Made by a program: the position numbers and the translations under genes. From Carboxydocella thermautotrophica (GTDB lineage Bacteria; Bacillota; GCA-003054495; Carboxydocellales; Carboxydocellaceae), in assembly GCA_003054495.1 (NCBI GenBank), contig CP028514.1:2310001-2374000 (forward strand): a stretch of DNA of 64,000 bases. Reading direction: 5' to 3'. Below, piece after piece: positions 3,095-24,514 of the stretch (its first letter is position 1; each line of letters begins with the position of its first letter). A model generated the notes under the pieces. That model did not search any database, was not told the origin of the DNA, and worked only from the letters and a program-made list of their open reading frames with translations.

Positions 3095-4423
3095 TTAGTA
3101 ACGAGCCAGATAGTTGTCCAGTTCCCACTGGGTAACCTTGGTGCGGTAGTCATCCCATTCAGCAGTTTTGGCTTCCACATACTTGCTGAAAATGTGTTCA
3201 CCCAGAGCTTCCCGGACCAGCTCGCTCTTTTTCATTTCTTCCAGCGCTTCTTGCAAGGAGCCGGGCAGGCTGGCAATACCTTCAGCAATTCTTTCTTCCT
3301 CGGTCATATCGTAGATATTGCGATTAGTAGGAGCCGGAGGCTCAATCTTGTTGAGAATACCATCCAGACCAGCAGCCAGAATCACAGTCAGAGCCAGGTA
3401 GGGGTTGCAGGCCGGGTCTGGGTTTCTCAGCTCAATCCGGGTGGACATGCCCCGTTTGGCCGGAATCCGAATGAGCGGACTGCGGTTTTTGGGAGACCAG
3501 GCTACATAGACAGGGGCCTCATAGCCCGGCACCAGCCGCTTGTAGGAGTTGACCAGCGGGTTGGTGATGGCCGCAATGGAACGGGCATGCTTAACAATAC
3601 CACCGATAAAGTACATAGCATCCTTGCTCAGCTGGTACTCCCCATTGGGATCGAAGAAAGCATTCTGCCCGTTTTTGAACAGGGAGACATTGGTATGCAT
3701 ACCGGAACCGTTAATGCCAAAAACAGGTTTCGGCATAAAGGTGGCATGCAGATTGTGCATTTGAGCGATTGTGCGCACTACAGTCTTGAAAGTTACAATA
3801 TTGTCTGCAGTCCGCAAAGCATCAGCGTATTTGAAGTCAATTTCATGCTGGCCTTCAGCCACTTCGTGGTGAGAAGCTTCGATTTCAAAGCCCATTTTTT
3901 CCAGGGTCAGAACCATATCCCGGCGGGCATTTTCACCCATGTCAACAGGAGCCAGGTCAAAATAACCGCCTTCATCATGAGTAATAGTAGTAGGTTTGCC
4001 CTTTTCATCCTTATGGAAAAGGAAAAATTCACATTCGGGACCCACATTCATGGTATAACCCAGTTCAGCGGCTTTAGCCAGCATCCGCTTCAGGGTACCG
4101 CGAGGACAACCGTCAAAGGGCTTGCCTTCAGGAGTATATACATCGCAGATCAAGCGGGCCACTGCACCATCCTGAGGCCGCCAGGGCAGAACCAGGAAAG
4201 TATCATAGTCAGGCTTTAAATACATGTCGGATTCTTCAATCCGCACAAACCCTTCGATGGAAGAGCCATCAAACATCATTTCCCCATCCAGGGCCTTTTC
4301 CAGCTGTTCAACAGTGATAGCCACATTTTTGACAGTGCCCAGAATGTCCACAAATTGCAGGCGGACAAACTTCACATTGTTTTCCTGGGCCAAACGCAGT
4401 ACATCTTCTTTGGTTAATGCCAT
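3095..4423 (-). CDS. glnA: Glutamine synthetase, type I (GSI-alpha-like)
   Basis: Cytoplasmic ATP-dependent ligase making glutamine from glutamate and ammonium, 442 aa, the usual GSI-alpha length. Seen: N-terminal beta-grasp part ([26 protein letters not shown]), catalytic-domain signatures [32 protein letters not shown] and the arginine-rich [18 protein letters not shown]. Start 4423 was chosen because GAAGG lies 8-13 bases upstream; the upstream in-frame codon lies within the ribosome binding site. The long leader contains an ANTAR-type antiterminator and a terminator (separate entries), so expression is probably controlled by premature termination. The ANTAR protein encoded immediately upstream is the obvious candidate regulator. 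Confidence 0.97.
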
Positions 4424-4458: not shown

Positions 4459-4519
4459 CAAAAAATACAAAACGCCTTCAGGACACACCAACATAATATT
4501 GCCGGTGAACCCAAAGGCG
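4459..4519 (-). terminator. Attenuator terminator in glnA leader
   Basis: In the minus strand, CGCCTT (4519-4514) pairs with AAGGCG (4478-4473). Further pairing is possible between ACC and GGT inside, and a T-rich tract (TTTTGTATTTTTT) follows. It lies between the glnA promoter and start codon, so it would stop transcription before glnA. Its 5' arm is shared with the second ANTAR stem-loop, making the two structures mutually exclusive. Confidence 0.75.
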
Positions 4520-4553
4520 CCATTGCCCTAACCAAGATACCCCTTTGTATCTT
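4514..4553 (-). promoter_or_regulatory. ANTAR-type two-stem-loop antiterminator in glnA leader
   Basis: Minus-strand RNA: stem-loop 1 is AAGATAC-AAAGGG-GTATCTT (4553-4534, perfect 7-bp stem); a 4-base linker follows; stem-loop 2 is AGGGC-AATGGC-GCCTT (4529-4514). Both have six-base loops with A at position 1 and G at position 4, the pattern reported for ANTAR RNA targets. The 3' arm of stem-loop 2 is the 5' arm of the downstream terminator. Function as an antiterminator is inferred. Confidence 0.8.
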
Positions 4554-4576
4554 GCCCAGTATTTAATTACATTATC

Positions 4577-4605
4577 AGTATAACATGCAGGGTAAATGTT
4601 GACAA
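4577..4605 (-). promoter_or_regulatory. glnA sigma-A promoter
   Basis: TTGTCA (4605-4600), 17-bp spacer, TATACT (4582-4577). Transcription would start near 4570, about 15 bases before the first ANTAR stem-loop. The TTGTCAACA around the -35 element also occurs in the nif promoter. Confidence 0.75.
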
Positions 4606-4628: not shown

Positions 4629-5204
4629 TTATTCAGCAAAAGCCAGAATTATAGCTCTGGCTACTTCTGCCTTGGTTTGACGTTTGTCCATAGCCAGTTT
4701 TTGAATATAGCGATAAGCCTGTTCCTCTGTCATCTGACGGTACTTAATCAGCATGGCCTTAGCCTGATCCAGCAATTTACGGGTTTCCAGGTCGTCTTTT
4801 AAAGACTGAATCTCCCGGATCAGCTCCTGACTCTGACGAAAGCGGGCCAGAGCCAGGTCCACTGCCGGCAGCAAATTCAGTTCATTTACCGGCTTCAATA
4901 AATAGGAGACAGCCCAGCTGGTCTGTACTATTGTTCGCAGCTCCTCTGCTTGAGAATAATTGGCCAGTACCAGTACAGGGGCCAGCCGTTCCTGGTCCAG
5001 AATGCGCACCAGTTCCAAATAAGGCAAGCCAGGCAAATTGGTAGCCAGTACCACCAGATCTGGCTGAGTAGCCCGGGCCAGGGTCAAAGCCGTGGCACTG
5101 TCACTGGCCTCCCCAATAACAATAAAGCCAGCCCGGCTTAAAATTTCCTTGATTTTATTTCTGGTTCTGCCATCTTTTTCAGCTACCACTGTGCGCAACT
5201 GCAC
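4629..5204 (-). CDS. ANTAR-domain RNA-binding antitermination regulator with degenerate receiver domain
   Basis: Cytoplasmic protein of 191 aa. Order: receiver-like domain (1-118), coiled linker (about 120-145), ANTAR domain (about 143-189, LLDQAKAMLIKYRQMTEEQA and the following helices). ANTAR domains bind paired six-base-loop RNA hairpins and block terminators. The receiver keeps the conserved Lys (K104 in YLLKPV), but the phosphoacceptor position is alanine (VVLATNLPG, A54) and the usual beta-4 Ser/Thr is also alanine. It is therefore a pseudo-receiver, probably regulated by ligand or protein binding rather than phosphotransfer. GTG start with AGGAGG upstream. The next gene is glnA, whose leader carries a matching RNA target. 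Confidence 0.92.
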   Translation of the reverse strand: MQLRTVVAEKDGRTRNKIKEILSRAGFIVIGEASDSATALTLARATQPDLVVLATNLPGLPYLELVRILDQERLAPVLVLANYSQAEELRTIVQTSWAVSYLLKPVNELNLLPAVDLALARFRQSQELIREIQSLKDDLETRKLLDQAKAMLIKYRQMTEEQAYRYIQKLAMDKRQTKAEVARAIILAFAE

Positions 5205-5278: not shown

Positions 5279-5629
5279 CTATATTTCTTCCAACCCCAGG
5301 CTGATAGCAATAGCCCGGTTAACTTTTTCCATGATCTCCTCATCCAGAGTACTAACTTTCTCCCTCAGCCGGCTTTTATCGATGGTGCGAATCTGTTCCA
5401 GCAATATCACAGAATCCTTTTCCAGACCGCTGATTTTAGCTTTAATCTCCACATGGGTGGGGAGTTTGGCTTTACTGATCTGGGAAGTAATGGCCGCCAC
5501 TATGGTGGTGGGACTATGCTGGTTGCCAATATCATTTTGCAGGACCAGAACTGGTCGAGTTCCGCCCTGTTCTGAGCCCACCACCGGGCTAAGCTCTGCG
5601 TAAAAGATATCACCGCGGCGAATCCGCAT
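5279..5629 (-). CDS. mazF: MazF/EndoA-type mRNA interferase toxin
   Basis: Sequence-specific endoribonuclease of the PemK/MazF (NdoA) family, 116 aa, which cleaves mRNA when not bound by its antitoxin. Seen: [20 protein letters not shown], the RPVLVLQND strand, and [11 protein letters not shown] with the conserved Thr/Ser. This matches the usual length and pattern of the chromosomal EndoA proteins of Bacillus and clostridia. Start 5629 has GAGGGGGAATA upstream and lies two bases after the antitoxin stop codon, so the two genes are co-translated. In many Firmicutes alr precedes this pair; here an IS element lies upstream instead. Confidence 0.93.
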
Positions 5630-5631
5630 AC

Positions 5632-5904
5632 TTATTCCCCCTCTGCCGCTTGCCACAGGGGAAGGGTTCCATCGACCTCCAGGCCCATATACTCGTTAGC
5701 CAGAGACAGGTTAATCGGGGCCATTTCCATATAGCCGCGGATCATTTGCTCCCTGATCTGCCGTTTTTTTCGTTCTGCTATATAGTGCTGGACAGCTTCA
5801 CGAAATAACTGGCTGCGGTTCAGTTTTTCCGCTGAAGCCAGACCATCCACCTCAGCCAGCAATTGATCGGGCAGGCTGATCATCACCCTTCTGGATTCAG
5901 CCAA
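5632..5904 (-). CDS. mazE: Ribbon-helix-helix antitoxin paired with MazF (NdoAI-like)
   Basis: About 90 aa. The N-terminal part [19 protein letters not shown] is a typical ribbon-helix-helix DNA-binding segment, followed by a helix-rich tail that in this family wraps the toxin. It should neutralise MazF and autorepress the operon. The start is best placed at TTG 5904, eight bases after AGGGGG; the GTG at 5913 directly abuts that site. A consensus promoter lies just upstream (separate entry). Confidence 0.85.
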
Positions 5905-5954
5905 GCTCCACACCCCCTGTTAGGTTCATACCGTATATCAAGAGACCATGCTTT

Positions 5955-6037: not shown

Positions 6038-7270
6038 TTAAGCGGATGCACGCAGGTTTTTATCCCCGCGCTTTGGTTCGTGGACTCCGTGCCATCCCAA
6101 ACGGAACGACAGGACCACGAGCCGCGCCACACGGCCACTACTCCCCTTTATGGGAGATACCTTGTACTTCTTCTCGAAAATGTTCAAGGCCCCGTTCACG
6201 TCCGCCTGCGCCCTCCAGCCGCAGGAACACTCGTATAACCCCCGGCTTTTCCGGTTGGAGGACAAGACGCGCCCGCAGACGTGGCAAGTGACTGACGTAC
6301 CTCTCTCATTCACGTCGTCCCGGACCACAATCCCCGCCAAAGCACCCTTGTACTTGAGCATGTTGATGAGCTTCCGGTACGGCCAGGCGTGCAGACGTTG
6401 GTTCAGCTGGTCCCCATAGTCGGTGCTTTCACGGATACCGTTGATGTCACCTATGGCTATCTCCTTCACGCCCCGCCGCACACACTCTGCAATGAAGTGG
6501 GACGTGGCTACGTGCAGTAACTGTTCTACCTGCTTCTTCTCCCGGTGCGCTACCTGTCCCCATCTCCGGGAATTCCGTTGAAGGCTGGCCCGTACCTTCT
6601 GCCAGTACCGCCTTATGGCCTTGACTAGCCTGCCGGAGTAAAGCGTTACCGTGCCATCGCCAAAGGCGCAGGCCATAAGGACCGTCTCCCCGAGGTCCAC
6701 CGCTACTCTCTCCGTCCCGCTATTTTCACGGGCCTTAACCTCCACCACCAGACGGGCCTCTATCTGCCCGGAAATCTTGTCGTAGGTGATGGAAAGCTCC
6801 CGCACCCGGTCGTACTCAATACCAGGACGGTGAGATATGCGGAAAGAAACCTGTTTTACACCATCTTCCCGGCTGGTGCCCAGACTCAGAGTGACTCTGT
6901 TTTTATCTACCCTGAACCCGCTTTGGACATATTTGAGCGGAGAAAGATAATTTTTATGGCGGAAGCCGGGAGCCTTGTGTTGTGTGAGACCCTTTTTCTT
7001 GAGAGCAAAGAAAGACCTATATGCTTCCCGTACCTCATCACGGGTGAGCTGGACTGACATCGAGTAATACCCTTTGACCCTGGGTAGCTCCTTTAAGATG
7101 CGGTTGAGGTTCTTTCGAGAAATATTTACTTTCCCGTTTTCTTTGTACTCTTCCCGCAGGTGCCACAGGAGGCCGTTGTAGACCTTGGTGGCACAGAACA
7201 TGGCGTCTTTTAGAACAGCTTCGGTCTGAGAATCTGCGTGGACCTGCGCCTTGAGAGTGATTAAAGGCAT
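6038..7270 (-). CDS. tnpB: TnpB (OrfB of IS200/IS605), RNA-guided-nuclease family
   Basis: 410 aa. TnpB proteins are RuvC-like nucleases guided by an RNA made from the element's right end. Seen: N-terminal helix-turn-helix-like part (about 1-110), RuvC-I VAVDLGE (D192), RuvC-II region IAIGDINGIRE, Cys4 zinc finger (C329, C332, C348, C350) and RuvC-III ADVNGALNI (D357). At RuvC-II the usual Glu of VxEDL is Gly274 followed by Asp275, with Glu281 nearby. This variant occurs in a subgroup of OrfB proteins and leaves activity uncertain. Start 7270 has AGGAGGTAATTGG upstream. The guide RNA is expected to span the 3' end of the gene and the right end. Confidence 0.92.
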   Translation of the reverse strand: MPLITLKAQVHADSQTEAVLKDAMFCATKVYNGLLWHLREEYKENGKVNISRKNLNRILKELPRVKGYYSMSVQLTRDEVREAYRSFFALKKKGLTQHKAPGFRHKNYLSPLKYVQSGFRVDKNRVTLSLGTSREDGVKQVSFRISHRPGIEYDRVRELSITYDKISGQIEARLVVEVKARENSGTERVAVDLGETVLMACAFGDGTVTLYSGRLVKAIRRYWQKVRASLQRNSRRWGQVAHREKKQVEQLLHVATSHFIAECVRRGVKEIAIGDINGIRESTDYGDQLNQRLHAWPYRKLINMLKYKGALAGIVVRDDVNERGTSVTCHVCGRVLSSNRKSRGLYECSCGWRAQADVNGALNIFEKKYKVSPIKGSSGRVARLVVLSFRLGWHGVHEPKRGDKNLRASA

Positions 7271-9432: not shown

Positions 9433-10170
9433 TTATCCCACATATAATTGCCCGTAAGGCCGGGTAGAAACCGGGCGAAGTTTAAAGAACTGCTCTGCCA
9501 TAATTGTATCCAGTTCCAGGCTGAAGTCCTGACAGTACTCAGCTAGAATTGCCCGCAATAATTGTAGGTCTTCAGTATCAGCTGGAAAAATGCTGCACTC
9601 TCTGCCCAGTTGAGCAGGATCCACTTCTCCCCGCAGATAGATGACTCCACCGTGCATGCCTGTACCAACCAGTTCCCCTACCAGAGGCTGATTAGGCTGC
9701 CGGTCCAGTCCCAGTACCACCAGTATACCCCCGGCCATGTATTCACCCAGGAAGTCGCCGGCACTACCGCCGATCACCATTACCGGCCGTTGCTGCTGGT
9801 ATTCCTTCATGTGGATACCTACCCGGTAGCCCACACTGCCGCGGATGAAAAGTTTGCCTCCCCGCATGGCATAGCCGAGAACATCCCCGGCCTGACCATG
9901 GATGACAATTTTACCCGCATTCATGGTGTTGCCGATGGCATCCTGGCCATTGCCGTGGACGATGATGGTAGGACCATCCAGAAACGCCCCCAGATCAGAC
10001 CCCGGGGTTCCCTGGACGGTGATGGTTATATCAGCACTGATACCGGTCCCAAGATAGCGCTGACCATTGATATTTTCCAGCAAAAATTCCCGTTCTCCTG
10101 CCGCTACCTGGGCTTTTAGCCACTGGTTCAAGTCTTTATAGTGCATTCCTTTCCCATTCAGTTTCTGCAT
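9433..10170 (-). CDS. Glutamate synthase GXGXG (beta-helix) domain subunit
   Basis: 245 aa, corresponding to the C-terminal domain of bacterial GltB, here encoded as a separate gene as in archaeal-type glutamate synthases. The right-handed beta-helix shows repeated Gly-rich turns (HGNGQDAIGNTMNAGKIVIH, GDVLGYAMRGGKLFIRG, GDFLGEYMAGGILVVLG). It is thought to be structural, bridging the amidotransferase and FMN domains. Start 10170 has AAGGGGGGACAGG upstream. It is the third gene of a gltB1-gltB2-gltB3 set. Confidence 0.88.
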   Translation of the reverse strand: MQKLNGKGMHYKDLNQWLKAQVAAGEREFLLENINGQRYLGTGISADITITVQGTPGSDLGAFLDGPTIIVHGNGQDAIGNTMNAGKIVIHGQAGDVLGYAMRGGKLFIRGSVGYRVGIHMKEYQQQRPVMVIGGSAGDFLGEYMAGGILVVLGLDRQPNQPLVGELVGTGMHGGVIYLRGEVDPAQLGRECSIFPADTEDLQLLRAILAEYCQDFSLELDTIMAEQFFKLRPVSTRPYGQLYVG

Positions 10171-10183
10171 TCCCTGTCCCCCC

Positions 10184-11683
10184 TTAGCGGCCGGCATGTT
10201 TTAAGCCCAGAATCTCCATTTCTTCCGCAGACAAGCCCACAGCCCGCAGCCGTTCCCGACTGCCCCGCAGGCTTTCTACGGCATTGACGCCCATCGCCCC
10301 TAGAATTTCCTTGATTTCCAGGGACCAGCCCCGGATCAGATTGGTCAGCTGTTCCGCTCCCCACTCCGGATCCAGCCGTCTGGTCAGGTTGGGGTCCTGG
10401 GTAGCAATACCCCAGGCACAACGACCGGAATAGCATTTCTGGCACATGGTACAGCCCAGAGCAATCAAGGCAGCAGTACCGATCATGACGGCATCAGCCC
10501 CTAATGCCAGGGCCTTGACCACATCGGCACTGTGGCGAATACCCCCCCCGGCGATAATGCTGACCCGGTTGCGGATTCCTTCCTGGCGCAAACGATCATC
10601 AACAGCAGCCAGAGCCAGTTCAATAGGGATGCCGACATGATCCCGAATCATGGCTGGCGTGGCCCCGGTACCGCCCCGAAAGCCATCGATAGTGATAACA
10701 TCGGCTCCAGCCCGGGCTATGCCGCTGGCGATAGCAGCTACATTGTGCACAGCGGCGATTTTTACCGCTACCGGTTTGCTGTAATTGGTAGCCTCTTTGA
10801 TGGCAGTAATCAGCTGGGCCAGGTCCTCAATGGAGTAGATATCATGGTGAGGGGCCGGTGAAATAGCATCTGAACCCACTGGAATCATACGGGTGCGGGA
10901 GACTTCCCCATCCACTTTCTCCCCGGGTAAATGGCCGCCAATACCGGGCTTGGCCCCCTGCCCGACCTTGATTTCCACCATGGCAGCCTGGTTGAGATAT
11001 TCCGGGGTAACGCCAAAACGCCCGGAAGCCACCTGCACAATAGTATTCTGCCCATACTGATACAACTCAGGATGCAATCCGCCCTCCCCGGTATTATAAA
11101 GGATCCCGGCTGCCGCTGCCGCTTTGGCCAGGGCCCGGTGGGCATTAAGGCTAATGGCACCAAAGGACATAGCGGCAAATACCAGAGGTGTTTCCAGCTT
11201 GATCTGCGGCGGCAGCGGCTCTGCCAACCGGTAACCACCAGGCCCTTCCACCACCTTGATGCCATCGGGGCGAGAACCCAGATAAGTGCGCAATTCCATG
11301 GGTTCCCGCAAGGGGTCCAGGGAAGGATTGGTTACCTGACAGGCATCTAAGGCAATGTGATCAAAATAGTTTTTCCAGGGCTTGTCATTGCCTGTGGCAG
11401 TCAGCAGCTTGGCGCCCGTAGCCGCCTGTTTTTTCACATTATTGATTACCCGGGGTTGCCAGTGGGCATTCTCCTTGAAAACCGCCGGGTTTTGTGTAAT
11501 ATAAATACAATCCTCCGGACAGACGAACATACAACGGCGACAGGCCACGCAGTCCCGGTGTTTGGCTACCACCCGGTCCTGCCAGGACAGGGCCCCGAAG
11601 GAACATTCCCTGACACAGCGCTGACAGCGGCGGCAGCGGTCATGTTCGATAACTACCCGAAATTCTGCTGCAATGCTTTTCAT
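10184..11683 (-). CDS. Glutamate synthase FMN-binding synthase subunit with N-terminal ferredoxin domain
   Basis: 499 aa. Residues 1-70 hold two [4Fe-4S] motifs (CRRCQRCVREC and CVACRRCMFVC). The rest is the FMN-binding (beta/alpha)8 barrel that forms glutamate from 2-oxoglutarate and ammonia: AAMSFGAISLNAHRALAKAA, GVTPEYLNQAAMVEIKVGQG, GADVITIDGFRGGTGATP, and a further Cys cluster CTMCQKCYSGRC for the 3Fe-4S site. The start overlaps the preceding stop (TGATG), with GAGGGGGTAGAGG upstream. No gltD-like NAD(P)H subunit is nearby, so reduced ferredoxin is the likely electron donor. Confidence 0.93.
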   Translation of the reverse strand: MKSIAAEFRVVIEHDRCRRCQRCVRECSFGALSWQDRVVAKHRDCVACRRCMFVCPEDCIYITQNPAVFKENAHWQPRVINNVKKQAATGAKLLTATGNDKPWKNYFDHIALDACQVTNPSLDPLREPMELRTYLGSRPDGIKVVEGPGGYRLAEPLPPQIKLETPLVFAAMSFGAISLNAHRALAKAAAAAGILYNTGEGGLHPELYQYGQNTIVQVASGRFGVTPEYLNQAAMVEIKVGQGAKPGIGGHLPGEKVDGEVSRTRMIPVGSDAISPAPHHDIYSIEDLAQLITAIKEATNYSKPVAVKIAAVHNVAAIASGIARAGADVITIDGFRGGTGATPAMIRDHVGIPIELALAAVDDRLRQEGIRNRVSIIAGGGIRHSADVVKALALGADAVMIGTAALIALGCTMCQKCYSGRCAWGIATQDPNLTRRLDPEWGAEQLTNLIRGWSLEIKEILGAMGVNAVESLRGSRERLRAVGLSAEEMEILGLKHAGR

Positions 11684-12780
11684 CAGACCTCTACCCCCTC
11701 TTCCAGTTCTACCAGTACCGGTTCGCCACCTCTGGGGGCCCAGACCCGATCGGGAGCCGGGCAAATTTCCCGAATAGCACTTTCCTCACTGGCCAGGAAG
11801 AACAGATCATCCTTTTCTGCCGCTACCATGGGCCGGAGTTTAATGCGGTCAGACAGTCCCAGCATGCCCCGGCTGTGGCCCAGAATAATGCTGAAGGGGC
11901 CGTTAAGAAGAGCCGAACCATAGACCTGACGGATAGCTGTAATCAGCTCTTTTTCATCCGCTGGCAAGCGGTCAATTTTATGCCAGAATTCAGGTGCCAC
12001 CGCTTTGGCCGCAATGGCAAATGGCAGTTTCTGTCTTCTCACCATCAGGTCGAAGATATATGTTACTACTTCTGTATCGGTTTGTAAATTGCATTTATAG
12101 CCAAACATCTCCAGATAACGTTTATTAATGCCATAGCTGGTGATTTCCCCATTATGAACTACCGACCAGTCCAGCAGGCAAAAGGGATGGGCCCCACCCC
12201 ACCAGCCGGGAGTATTGGTGGGGAAACGGCCATGGGCAGTCCAGAGATAGGCTTCATATTCTTCCAGCCGGTAGAAGCGGCCGATATCTTCCGGGTAGCC
12301 GACCCCCTTGAATGCTCCCATGTTTTTGCCGGAAGAAGCCACAAAGGCACCGTCGATCTGGTTATTGATATACATAACCACATCTACTACAAAATCCCTC
12401 TCATCTTTCAGGAAGCCGTTAACATTCAGCGCCTCTGGCCGCACCCGCAGAAAATAACGCCACAAAATCGGGCTTTCCCCGATTTGGGGCAAAGGCCGGG
12501 TGGGAAGAGGTTCCGAACCATCAATGAAAAAATATTCCCGAATATACATTTCGGTATTGATTTTCGCTGTTTCTGAGTGATACATCATATGGAAAGCATA
12601 ATGGTCCTTATATTGCGGATAAATGCCGTAGGCTGCAAAGCCGCCGCCCAGTCCGTTGGAGCGATCATGCATCAGGGCAATGGATTGGATTATTGCCTCT
12701 CCGTTCATGCGCCGGCCTTTCCGGCTCATGATCCCACTGATAGCACAGCCTGATGGAATGCGTGGTCTAATTCCCAGCAT
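11683..12780 (-). CDS. Glutamate synthase class II glutamine amidotransferase subunit
   Basis: 365 aa. It is the Ntn-hydrolase domain that releases ammonia from glutamine. The expected N-terminal nucleophile is the Cys in CAISGIMSRKG at about residue 12, so a short propeptide (MLGIRPRIPSG) should be removed. Further amidotransferase features: LGGGFAAYGIYP, WSVVHNGEITSYGINK, TDTEVVTYIFD. Start 12780 has TAGGTGAG upstream. It is the first gene of the split glutamate synthase operon, with its own promoter after nifV. Confidence 0.92.
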   Translation of the reverse strand: MLGIRPRIPSGCAISGIMSRKGRRMNGEAIIQSIALMHDRSNGLGGGFAAYGIYPQYKDHYAFHMMYHSETAKINTEMYIREYFFIDGSEPLPTRPLPQIGESPILWRYFLRVRPEALNVNGFLKDERDFVVDVVMYINNQIDGAFVASSGKNMGAFKGVGYPEDIGRFYRLEEYEAYLWTAHGRFPTNTPGWWGGAHPFCLLDWSVVHNGEITSYGINKRYLEMFGYKCNLQTDTEVVTYIFDLMVRRQKLPFAIAAKAVAPEFWHKIDRLPADEKELITAIRQVYGSALLNGPFSIILGHSRGMLGLSDRIKLRPMVAAEKDDLFFLASEESAIREICPAPDRVWAPRGGEPVLVELEEGVEV

Positions 12781-12825
12781 GCTTCTCACCTACCTATTGT
12801 ACAAATTATAAAAATGATAGGTTTT

Positions 12826-12855
12826 ATTATAACATTGAAGGAAAGTTTATGTCTA
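12826..12855 (-). promoter_or_regulatory. Promoter of the glutamate synthase operon
   Basis: TAGACA (12855-12850), 18-bp spacer, TATAAT (12831-12826), in the gap between the nifV stop and the first glutamate synthase gene. No ANTAR-type hairpin pair or terminator is visible between this promoter and the gene. Confidence 0.6.
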
Positions 12856-12886
12856 TGAACGCAATGTATGAATACAGTATATATTT

Positions 12887-13702
12887 CTAACAGGCTGCCA
12901 GACATTTTTTGGCTTTTTCTATAACATAGTTTTCTAGATGGTCGACTGTCTGCCAGTCAATTTCCAAATGTTCCTTATTAATTTCAACCAGTACCCGTAG
13001 AAATTGGCCCAGACTTGTATTCCCAGCCCTTTCTCCTAAACCGCCAGCCGTTGTGTTAATCCATAATGCGCCGGCTTTGTATGCGGCTAAAGCGTTGGCT
13101 GTTGCCAGACCAAAATCATTGTGGCCGTGAAACTCAATGGGTATAGAAACTTTTCCTCTTAAAAAATGGATCATTTCAAAAGTTCGAAAAGGGTCTAAGA
13201 TGCCTACAGTATCGGCCACTCTTAACCTGGTAGCCCCAAGTTTTTCTGCTTCCTGGGCTAATTGGGTTAAAAAAAACAGGTCGGCGCGTGAAGCATCTTC
13301 AGCACCGACACTAAACTGGCATCCCTGTTGTCTGGCAAAAGACAATACTTCCCGCAACTGACCTAATACCCAGTGGCGATCTTTTTGTAATTTATAACGA
13401 ATCTGAATATCCGAGGCAGGGACAGAAATGTGTATCAATTTAAAACCACATTGTATAGATTGCAAGATATCACATTTTCTGGCCCGGTTCCAGGTAATGA
13501 GTTTGGCCTTTAAATTTATTTCTGCTAATTTTTTCAATGAGCGCTGTTCAATTTCCCCCATTGCCGGAATCCCTGCCTCAATAAAATCTACACCTATCGC
13601 ATCCAGCCATCTGGCTATCAATATTTTATCTTCAATCCCAAAAACTACACCTGCTGCCTGTTCCCCATCTCTCAAGGTAGTATCAATAATCTTCAGTGTC
13701 AT
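12887..13702 (-). CDS. nifV: Homocitrate synthase catalytic domain (short NifV)
   Basis: 271 aa, DRE-TIM metallolyase that condenses acetyl-CoA and 2-oxoglutarate to homocitrate, the organic ligand of FeMo-cofactor. Seen: IIDTTLRDGEQAAGVVF (catalytic Arg-Asp), EAGIPAMGE, and EFHGHNDFGLATANALAAYKAG with the metal-binding His pair. Full-length NifV is about 375-380 aa; this one stops after the TIM barrel and lacks the C-terminal lid and communication domain. It resembles the separate alpha chains of clostridial split NifV, but no omega chain is seen in the window. Its ATGA start overlaps the modC stop. It is last in the nif-mod operon. Confidence 0.88.
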   Translation of the reverse strand: MTLKIIDTTLRDGEQAAGVVFGIEDKILIARWLDAIGVDFIEAGIPAMGEIEQRSLKKLAEINLKAKLITWNRARKCDILQSIQCGFKLIHISVPASDIQIRYKLQKDRHWVLGQLREVLSFARQQGCQFSVGAEDASRADLFFLTQLAQEAEKLGATRLRVADTVGILDPFRTFEMIHFLRGKVSIPIEFHGHNDFGLATANALAAYKAGALWINTTAGGLGERAGNTSLGQFLRVLVEINKEHLEIDWQTVDHLENYVIEKAKKCLAAC

Positions 13703-16949: not shown

Positions 16950-16975
16950 CTTTACTCCCACCTTTATAAAAAATC

Positions 16976-16999
16976 AGGAGCCTCAAAACCGAGGCTCCT
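16976..16999 (-). terminator. Hairpin terminator between nifI2 and nifB
   Basis: Perfect 9-bp inverted repeat AGGAGCCTC / GAGGCTCCT with a six-base loop, followed in the minus direction by GATTTTTTAT. It lies inside the nif operon and may lower expression of nifB, nifX, mod and nifV relative to nifHDKEN. Confidence 0.7.
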
Positions 17000-17023
17000 T
17001 TGCCTTCCAGTATCACCGTTTTA

Positions 17024-17398
17024 CTATTTAAGTGCTTCCTTTCCTTTTTCTGAAGTCCTAATCCGTACTACTTCCTTGATAGGACAGACAAAGATTTTGC
17101 CATCCCCGTAATAACCAGTTTGATTGACTCTGATAATGGTATCTACAACCTGCTGGACATCTTCGTCAGCAACTATAATGTGCAATAATCGTTTGGGAAT
17201 AAAGGAGTAGGTCGCCTCCTCGGAATACCTTTCACTAATTATTTCTCCCATTGGCGGATCAATTTCACTTAAAATACCTTTTTGTTTACCTCGACCACTG
17301 ACACTGTATAAATGAAAAGCATTAAACCCCAAACCATCCAGAGCTGCCTTGGTTTCCTGAATTTTAGAGCGGCGGAGAATAGCCATCACTTCTTTCAT
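17024..17398 (-). CDS. nifI2: Nitrogenase-associated PII protein NifI2
   Basis: 124 aa GlnB/PII-family protein. In methanogens NifI1-NifI2 complexes bind dinitrogenase and switch it off when ammonium is added; 2-oxoglutarate and ATP relieve this. Seen: MKEVMAILRRSKIQETKAALDGLG, T-loop base VSGRGKQKGI, a long T-loop with the YSFIPKRLLHIIVADED strand, and TGYYGDGKIFVCPI. The insertion in the T-loop and the length distinguish NifI2 from ordinary GlnB. It is 16 bases after nifI1. Confidence 0.93.
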   Translation of the reverse strand: MKEVMAILRRSKIQETKAALDGLGFNAFHLYSVSGRGKQKGILSEIDPPMGEIISERYSEEATYSFIPKRLLHIIVADEDVQQVVDTIIRVNQTGYYGDGKIFVCPIKEVVRIRTSEKGKEALK

Positions 17399-23474: not shown

Positions 23475-24465
<991 letters not shown>

Positions 24466-24471
<6 letters not shown>

Positions 24472-24499
24472 CCATCGCCTTGGAGTACTTCGTCGTACT
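24466..24499 (-). promoter_or_regulatory. ANTAR-type antiterminator module 1 in nifH leader
   Basis: Minus-strand RNA: AGTAC-GACGAA-GTACT (24499-24484), a 2-base linker, then AAGGC-GATGGG-GCTTT (24481-24466). Both loops are six bases with G4, but position 1 is G instead of the usual A. The 3' arm of the second hairpin (GCTTT) is part of the 5' arm of the first terminator. The geometry fits an ANTAR target; the loop deviation lowers confidence. Confidence 0.6.
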
Positions 24500-24514
24500 G
24501 AATTTTACAATGCT

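Follow-up and report, generated by a model that had tools for sequence, protein, structure and literature searches.

The leader of glnA, the only glutamine synthetase gene that a genome search recovered (a single PF00120 match), is very probably a transcription attenuator that responds to an ANTAR protein. Throughout, the window denotes the whole 64-kb stretch of DNA that was analysed, and the positions of its relevant features are collected in Table 1. The leader is about 150 nt long and carries two successive hexaloop hairpins (P1 and P2), followed by an intrinsic terminator whose 5' arm (CGCCTTTGGG) takes in the 3' arm of P2 (GCCTT). Both hexaloops, AAAGGG and AATGGC, have A at position 1 and G at position 4, and both are closed by a C-G pair. 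Judged by its sequence, the leader is thus a member of the ANTAR-target RNA class, which is characterised by dual hexaloop hairpins with stems of at least 3 bp and the A1/G4 loop signature. It also matches the model R1 with 40.2 bits at positions 4515-4552, this sequence being itself a member of the R1 seed.

Table 1. Features of the glnA locus and of the nif cluster (window positions).
Feature	Position	Strand	Description
glnA	3095..4423	minus	ATG at 4423; TIGR00653, 601 bits
U-tract	4460-4472	minus	TTTTGTATTTTTT; directly after the terminator, read from the sequence
Intrinsic terminator stem-loop	4519-4473	minus	CGCCTTTGGG...TCCTGAAGGCG
P2 hairpin (antiterminator)	4529-4514	minus	AGGGC[AATGGC]GCCTT; 5 bp including one G.U
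P1-P2 linker			GTT (3 nt), or GGTT (4 nt) counting a 7-bp P1 stem
P1 hairpin	4554-4533	minus	CAAGATAC[AAAGGG]GTATCTTG; perfect 7 bp, eighth C-G pair possible
Promoter-like site	4605-4577	minus	TTGTCA-17-(TG)TATACT, extended -10 TG; faces glnA; consensus scan, by itself no proof of function
Receiver-ANTAR protein gene	4629..5204	minus	191 aa; Pfam PF03861 ANTAR, 66.7 bits; PF00072 Response_reg, 45.5 bits
Candidate weak module	16968..17026	minus	gap between PII gene and radical-SAM gene, nif cluster; poor P1, P2 AGGC[AAAGGA]GCCT, overlapping terminator; R1 17.6 bits
nif leader module 2	24347..24415	minus	GGGTGC[AGGGAA]GTGCCT, GTGGC[AACGGA]GTCAT, overlapping terminator, T6; before nifH
nif leader module 1	24435..24500	minus	AGTAC[GACGAA]GTACT, AAGGC[GATGGG]GCTTT, overlapping terminator, T6; R1 16.0 bits

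The initial annotation had described this leader as a textbook ANTAR target next to the gene of an ANTAR protein, and every element of that anatomy is found, base for base, on the minus strand: the 7-bp P1 stem and its loop, the 5-bp P2 whose 3' arm is shared with the terminator, the U-tract, and an ANTAR gene lying directly upstream in the same orientation. Its 4-base linker is correct for a 7-bp P1 stem and shortens to 3 nt if the eighth pair is counted. The word textbook suits the A1/G4 loops and the overlap of P2 with the terminator, but not the linker, which at 3-4 nt is shorter than those of the Enterococcus faecalis eut leaders (5-12 nt; PMC3369931), while lying inside both the 2-25 nt reported more widely (PMC8164766) and the 0-16 nt found in this phylum, where linkers of 0-5 nt are frequent. 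The length of the linker counts against an attenuator inasmuch as it is as short as that of an inactive eutP mutant, in which a 3-nt linker cost most of the induction (PMC3369931).

Folding predictions are consistent with a switch between two states. Taken alone, P1 folds with -8.1, P2 with -5.1 and the terminator with -25.5 kcal/mol, and the weakness of P2 beside so strong a terminator is a second point against an attenuator. When the transcript was folded at growing lengths, P1 formed first and P2 next, and P2 gave way to the terminator only after the terminator's 3' arm had been made. Forcing P1 and P2 excluded the terminator, and the stem that remained was shorter and lay apart from the U-tract (-30.0 vs -46.1 kcal/mol), so that the two predicted states are mutually exclusive and the antiterminated state would need help, a requirement that in these models fits the published mechanism of ANTAR proteins (PMC3369931, PMC3369936). 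The leader as a whole folds better than shuffled sequence (z -2.83).

On the mechanism that we propose, transcription would start from the glnA promoter about 20 nt ahead of P1, and without an active ANTAR protein the terminator would form and most transcripts would stop near position 4460. An ANTAR dimer holding P1 and P2 would keep the 3' arm of P2 from the terminator; since the remaining stem would be short and far from the U-tract, RNA polymerase would proceed into glnA. The effector would most likely be the ANTAR protein encoded upstream, possibly sharing the task with a second, amt-linked ANTAR protein, and the switch would act under nitrogen limitation on a set of targets to which nif, an operon of ANTAR, amtB and glnK genes, and a glnK-amt unit would also belong. 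The control of glnA by read-through, as claimed in the initial annotation, is well supported as a model by anatomy, folding and comparison with relatives.

Comparative evidence was gathered with a module scan, which sought two successive A1/G4 hexaloop hairpins, an arm of the second pairing into a terminator. The window contains two such modules, in the glnA and nif leaders, whereas 20 shuffles that preserved dinucleotides gave 0.05 on average. In the loci of relatives, which were scanned with loop positions 1 and 2 left free, there are 54 against 0.6 in shuffles. A pattern scan of genome contigs yielded two useful close relatives only. Two further genera of the same order (L005 and L006) have the arrangement mazE-mazF-ANTAR-glnA as well, with a module between the ANTAR gene and glnA; among these three leaders, stem positions differ with pairing kept, most loop positions are held in common and the terminator loop is divergent. 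In the window, the mazE-mazF type toxin-antitoxin pair lies at 5279-5913 (minus strand), directly upstream of the ANTAR gene, and a frame resembling a TnpB/OrfB-type transposon gene by its sequence lies close behind the cluster at 6038-7270 (minus strand).

Across the phylum, a related ANTAR protein occurs in 71 of 199 genomes, and glnA is the next gene after it at 49 of 92 loci. Thirteen of these 49 ANTAR-glnA junctions contain a module, with none in shuffles; in the other 36 none was detected, and several of these have one ahead of the ANTAR gene. A module is present in the ANTAR gene's own leader in 24 of the 92 cases (shuffles, none). Loop position 2, which was left unselected, is A in 39 of 40 A1-type P2 loops. 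Of the bases at position 1, on which the scan of these loci likewise placed no restriction, A occurs 83 times, G 22 times, and C or T about three times, so that the G1 loop is a real minority form. The P1 loop of L005 also begins with G, which, like the junctions lacking a module, tells against the attenuator reading. In an alignment of 20 sequences, 98.5% of cells are paired and eight of ten pairs covary, figures that are partly circular because the set was mostly picked by pairing.

The same comparisons bear on two accounts of the leader that dispense with an ANTAR-responsive switch. Terminators after operons are ordinary and the glnA leader stands directly behind the ANTAR gene, so that the terminator might merely close a mazEF-ANTAR operon, the hairpins having no regulatory role. 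However, the terminator lies downstream of a promoter-like site that faces glnA (24 bp beyond the end of the ANTAR gene), paired changes preserve both hexaloop hairpins whereas the terminator loop diverges, and such modules are nearly absent from shuffled sequence; we regard this account as very improbable. Scarcely credible is control of glnA by a ligand-binding riboswitch, a T-box or a leader-peptide attenuator, as a terminator in a leader of some 150 nt, and an ATG inside the P2 loop, might otherwise suggest. At gathering score no Rfam cis-RNA family matched the window, and the leader was without a match even at E up to 1. A leader peptide was rejected, since the ATG is not conserved (the corresponding loop of L005 is AAAGAG) and the frame that it opens has no glutamine codon ahead of the terminator.

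The protein encoded between mazF and glnA combines an N-terminal receiver fold with a C-terminal ANTAR domain, the architecture of EutV and NitR, and matches two solved proteins over its full length (1s8n, a putative antiterminator, E 7e-33; 6wsh, a response regulator, E 3e-31). Its receiver reads VVLATNLP in alignments where its relatives have VILDxxLP, placing Ala at the site of the phospho-acceptor Asp; phosphorylation, or a phosphorelay, via that residue is therefore excluded for this protein. Among the 92 family members in the phylum the site is Asp in 63 and another residue in 29 (E 11, A 7, N 6, others 5). On the tree of the 92 proteins, Asp and other residues must have replaced one another at least 14 times, but well-supported branches force only three of these changes, so that the number of independent losses of Asp is uncertain. 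Since Ala stands in place of Asp, the protein is probably governed by a partner protein or by its own amount, and not by a histidine kinase; among the genes adjoining the ANTAR gene (mazE, mazF and glnA), none encodes a histidine kinase. Glutamine synthetase and PII are candidate partners on grounds of gene neighbourhood and of the parallel with other nitrogen regulators of Gram-positive bacteria.

The genome encodes two ANTAR proteins, a further point against the proposed mechanism. The second (G000:C1:2289114-2289671) has an intact Asp; its gene shares an operon with amtB and glnK and is preceded by an ANTAR leader of its own. It is possible, if on balance doubtful, that the attenuator is real and is worked by this amt-linked protein, the neighbouring pseudo-receiver protein having another role or acting as a modulator. 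Such an assignment would accord with the higher ANTAR domain score of the amt-linked protein (87.4 vs 69.1 bits), with its retention of the Asp motif (VVVDLNLP), with the P2 loop AATGGC common to its own leader and that of glnA, and with the rapid evolution of the glnA-linked protein (end branch 1.46). Against it stand the ANTAR-glnA synteny, kept across the order and at those 49 loci of the phylum, and the ANTAR domain of the neighbour, which retains most of the conserved positions of the family. We favour the next-door protein as the probable effector at the glnA leader. On a more far-reaching joint reading, the glnA-linked protein would sense nitrogen without a kinase: glutamine synthetase or PII would gate its pseudo-receiver by contact, so that the attenuator would directly read their state. 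The two paralogues would differ in loop preference (A1 and G1), which would turn the serial modules at nif into an AND gate; we consider this conjunction unlikely.

The regulon, for whose definition the initial annotation recommended a genome-wide search for the two-hairpin motif, was sought with model and family searches only. Modules precede glnA, the ANTAR-amtB-glnK operon, a second amt behind a second glnK, and nif. Of 599 candidates, the genome search with R1 scored 150; the nif modules escaped it but were found by the full window scan. Because this search was lossy, the list of targets is incomplete. The nif leader has two modules in series, in which loop position 1 is G in both loops of the first and A in both loops of the second, and the first is matched by R1 although it is outside the R1 seed. 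Elsewhere in the phylum a module is a frequent feature of this leader, being present in 11 of 29 distinct cases (shuffles, none), and the arrangement of two in series recurs at three other loci (L131, L133 and L139). The proposal that the regulator of glnA could also act on nif is thus supported on its target side. A weaker candidate lies elsewhere in the nif cluster (Table 1). One R1 match inside the second ANTAR gene (L109) and the weak matches L110-L116 were discounted as probably due to chance.

Some further features of the nitrogen genes deserve mention. The module between the second glnK and the second amt, at about positions 1501-1540 of that locus, L108 (G000:C1:485521-485560), has the loops GATGGG and GATGAC, and the amt frame there contains two in-frame stops and looks broken. 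Before the nif cluster, at window positions 9433-12789 on the minus strand, lie split frames that by their sequence resemble parts of a glutamate synthase (glutaminase-like, FMN/ferredoxin, and GltB C-terminal-like). No ANTAR module was found ahead of these frames, either by eye (12640-12980) or in the window scans.

Taken together, the modules would bring nitrogenase, one operon for ammonium transport and the organism's sole glutamine synthetase under one RNA-based control logic. The bases to mutate are named by the hairpins themselves, and the recurrent loss of the phospho-acceptor makes the signal sensed by nitrogen-linked ANTAR proteins directly testable. Less expected are the G1 form of the loop and the lack of the Asp, both in the glnA-linked regulator and, repeatedly, among its relatives.

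ANTAR antitermination of nitrogen genes has already been published, and the glnA leader is a good new example of this known control device. Genes for glutamine and glutamate synthases, P-II, ammonium transporters and nitrogenase were predicted by Ramesh et al. 2012 to have ANTAR targets ahead of them, and nitrogen regulons were predicted in Desulfotomaculum acetoxidans, D. reducens and Pelobacter carbinolicus, the first of which has several predicted targets per unit (PMC3369931). The targets described here are alike; however, those searches fixed A1, whereas some modules of the present genome have G1, which suggests that genuine targets escape any search that demands A1. NitR of Clostridium saccharobutylicum is described in a review as an ANTAR protein through whose antitermination GS/GOGAT genes are induced when nitrogen is limiting (Stutz et al. 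2007, via PMC6316151), and on that description it resembles the present system as a nitrogen-linked antiterminator with a glutamine synthetase target. The eut leaders and EutV share with the glnA system a receiver-ANTAR protein, A1/G4 hexaloops and a P2 that overlaps the terminator; dimerisation of EutV, however, needs phosphorylation (PMC3369931), whereas the glnA-linked protein has no phospho-acceptor Asp. In this respect the latter is closer to AmiR of Pseudomonas aeruginosa, presented in these accounts as the model of a known class of pseudo-receiver ANTAR proteins (PMC3369931) and as controlled by a partner (PMC3369931, PMC3369936). The signal in that system is amide and the known partner is AmiC, whereas the glnA-linked protein would respond to nitrogen status.
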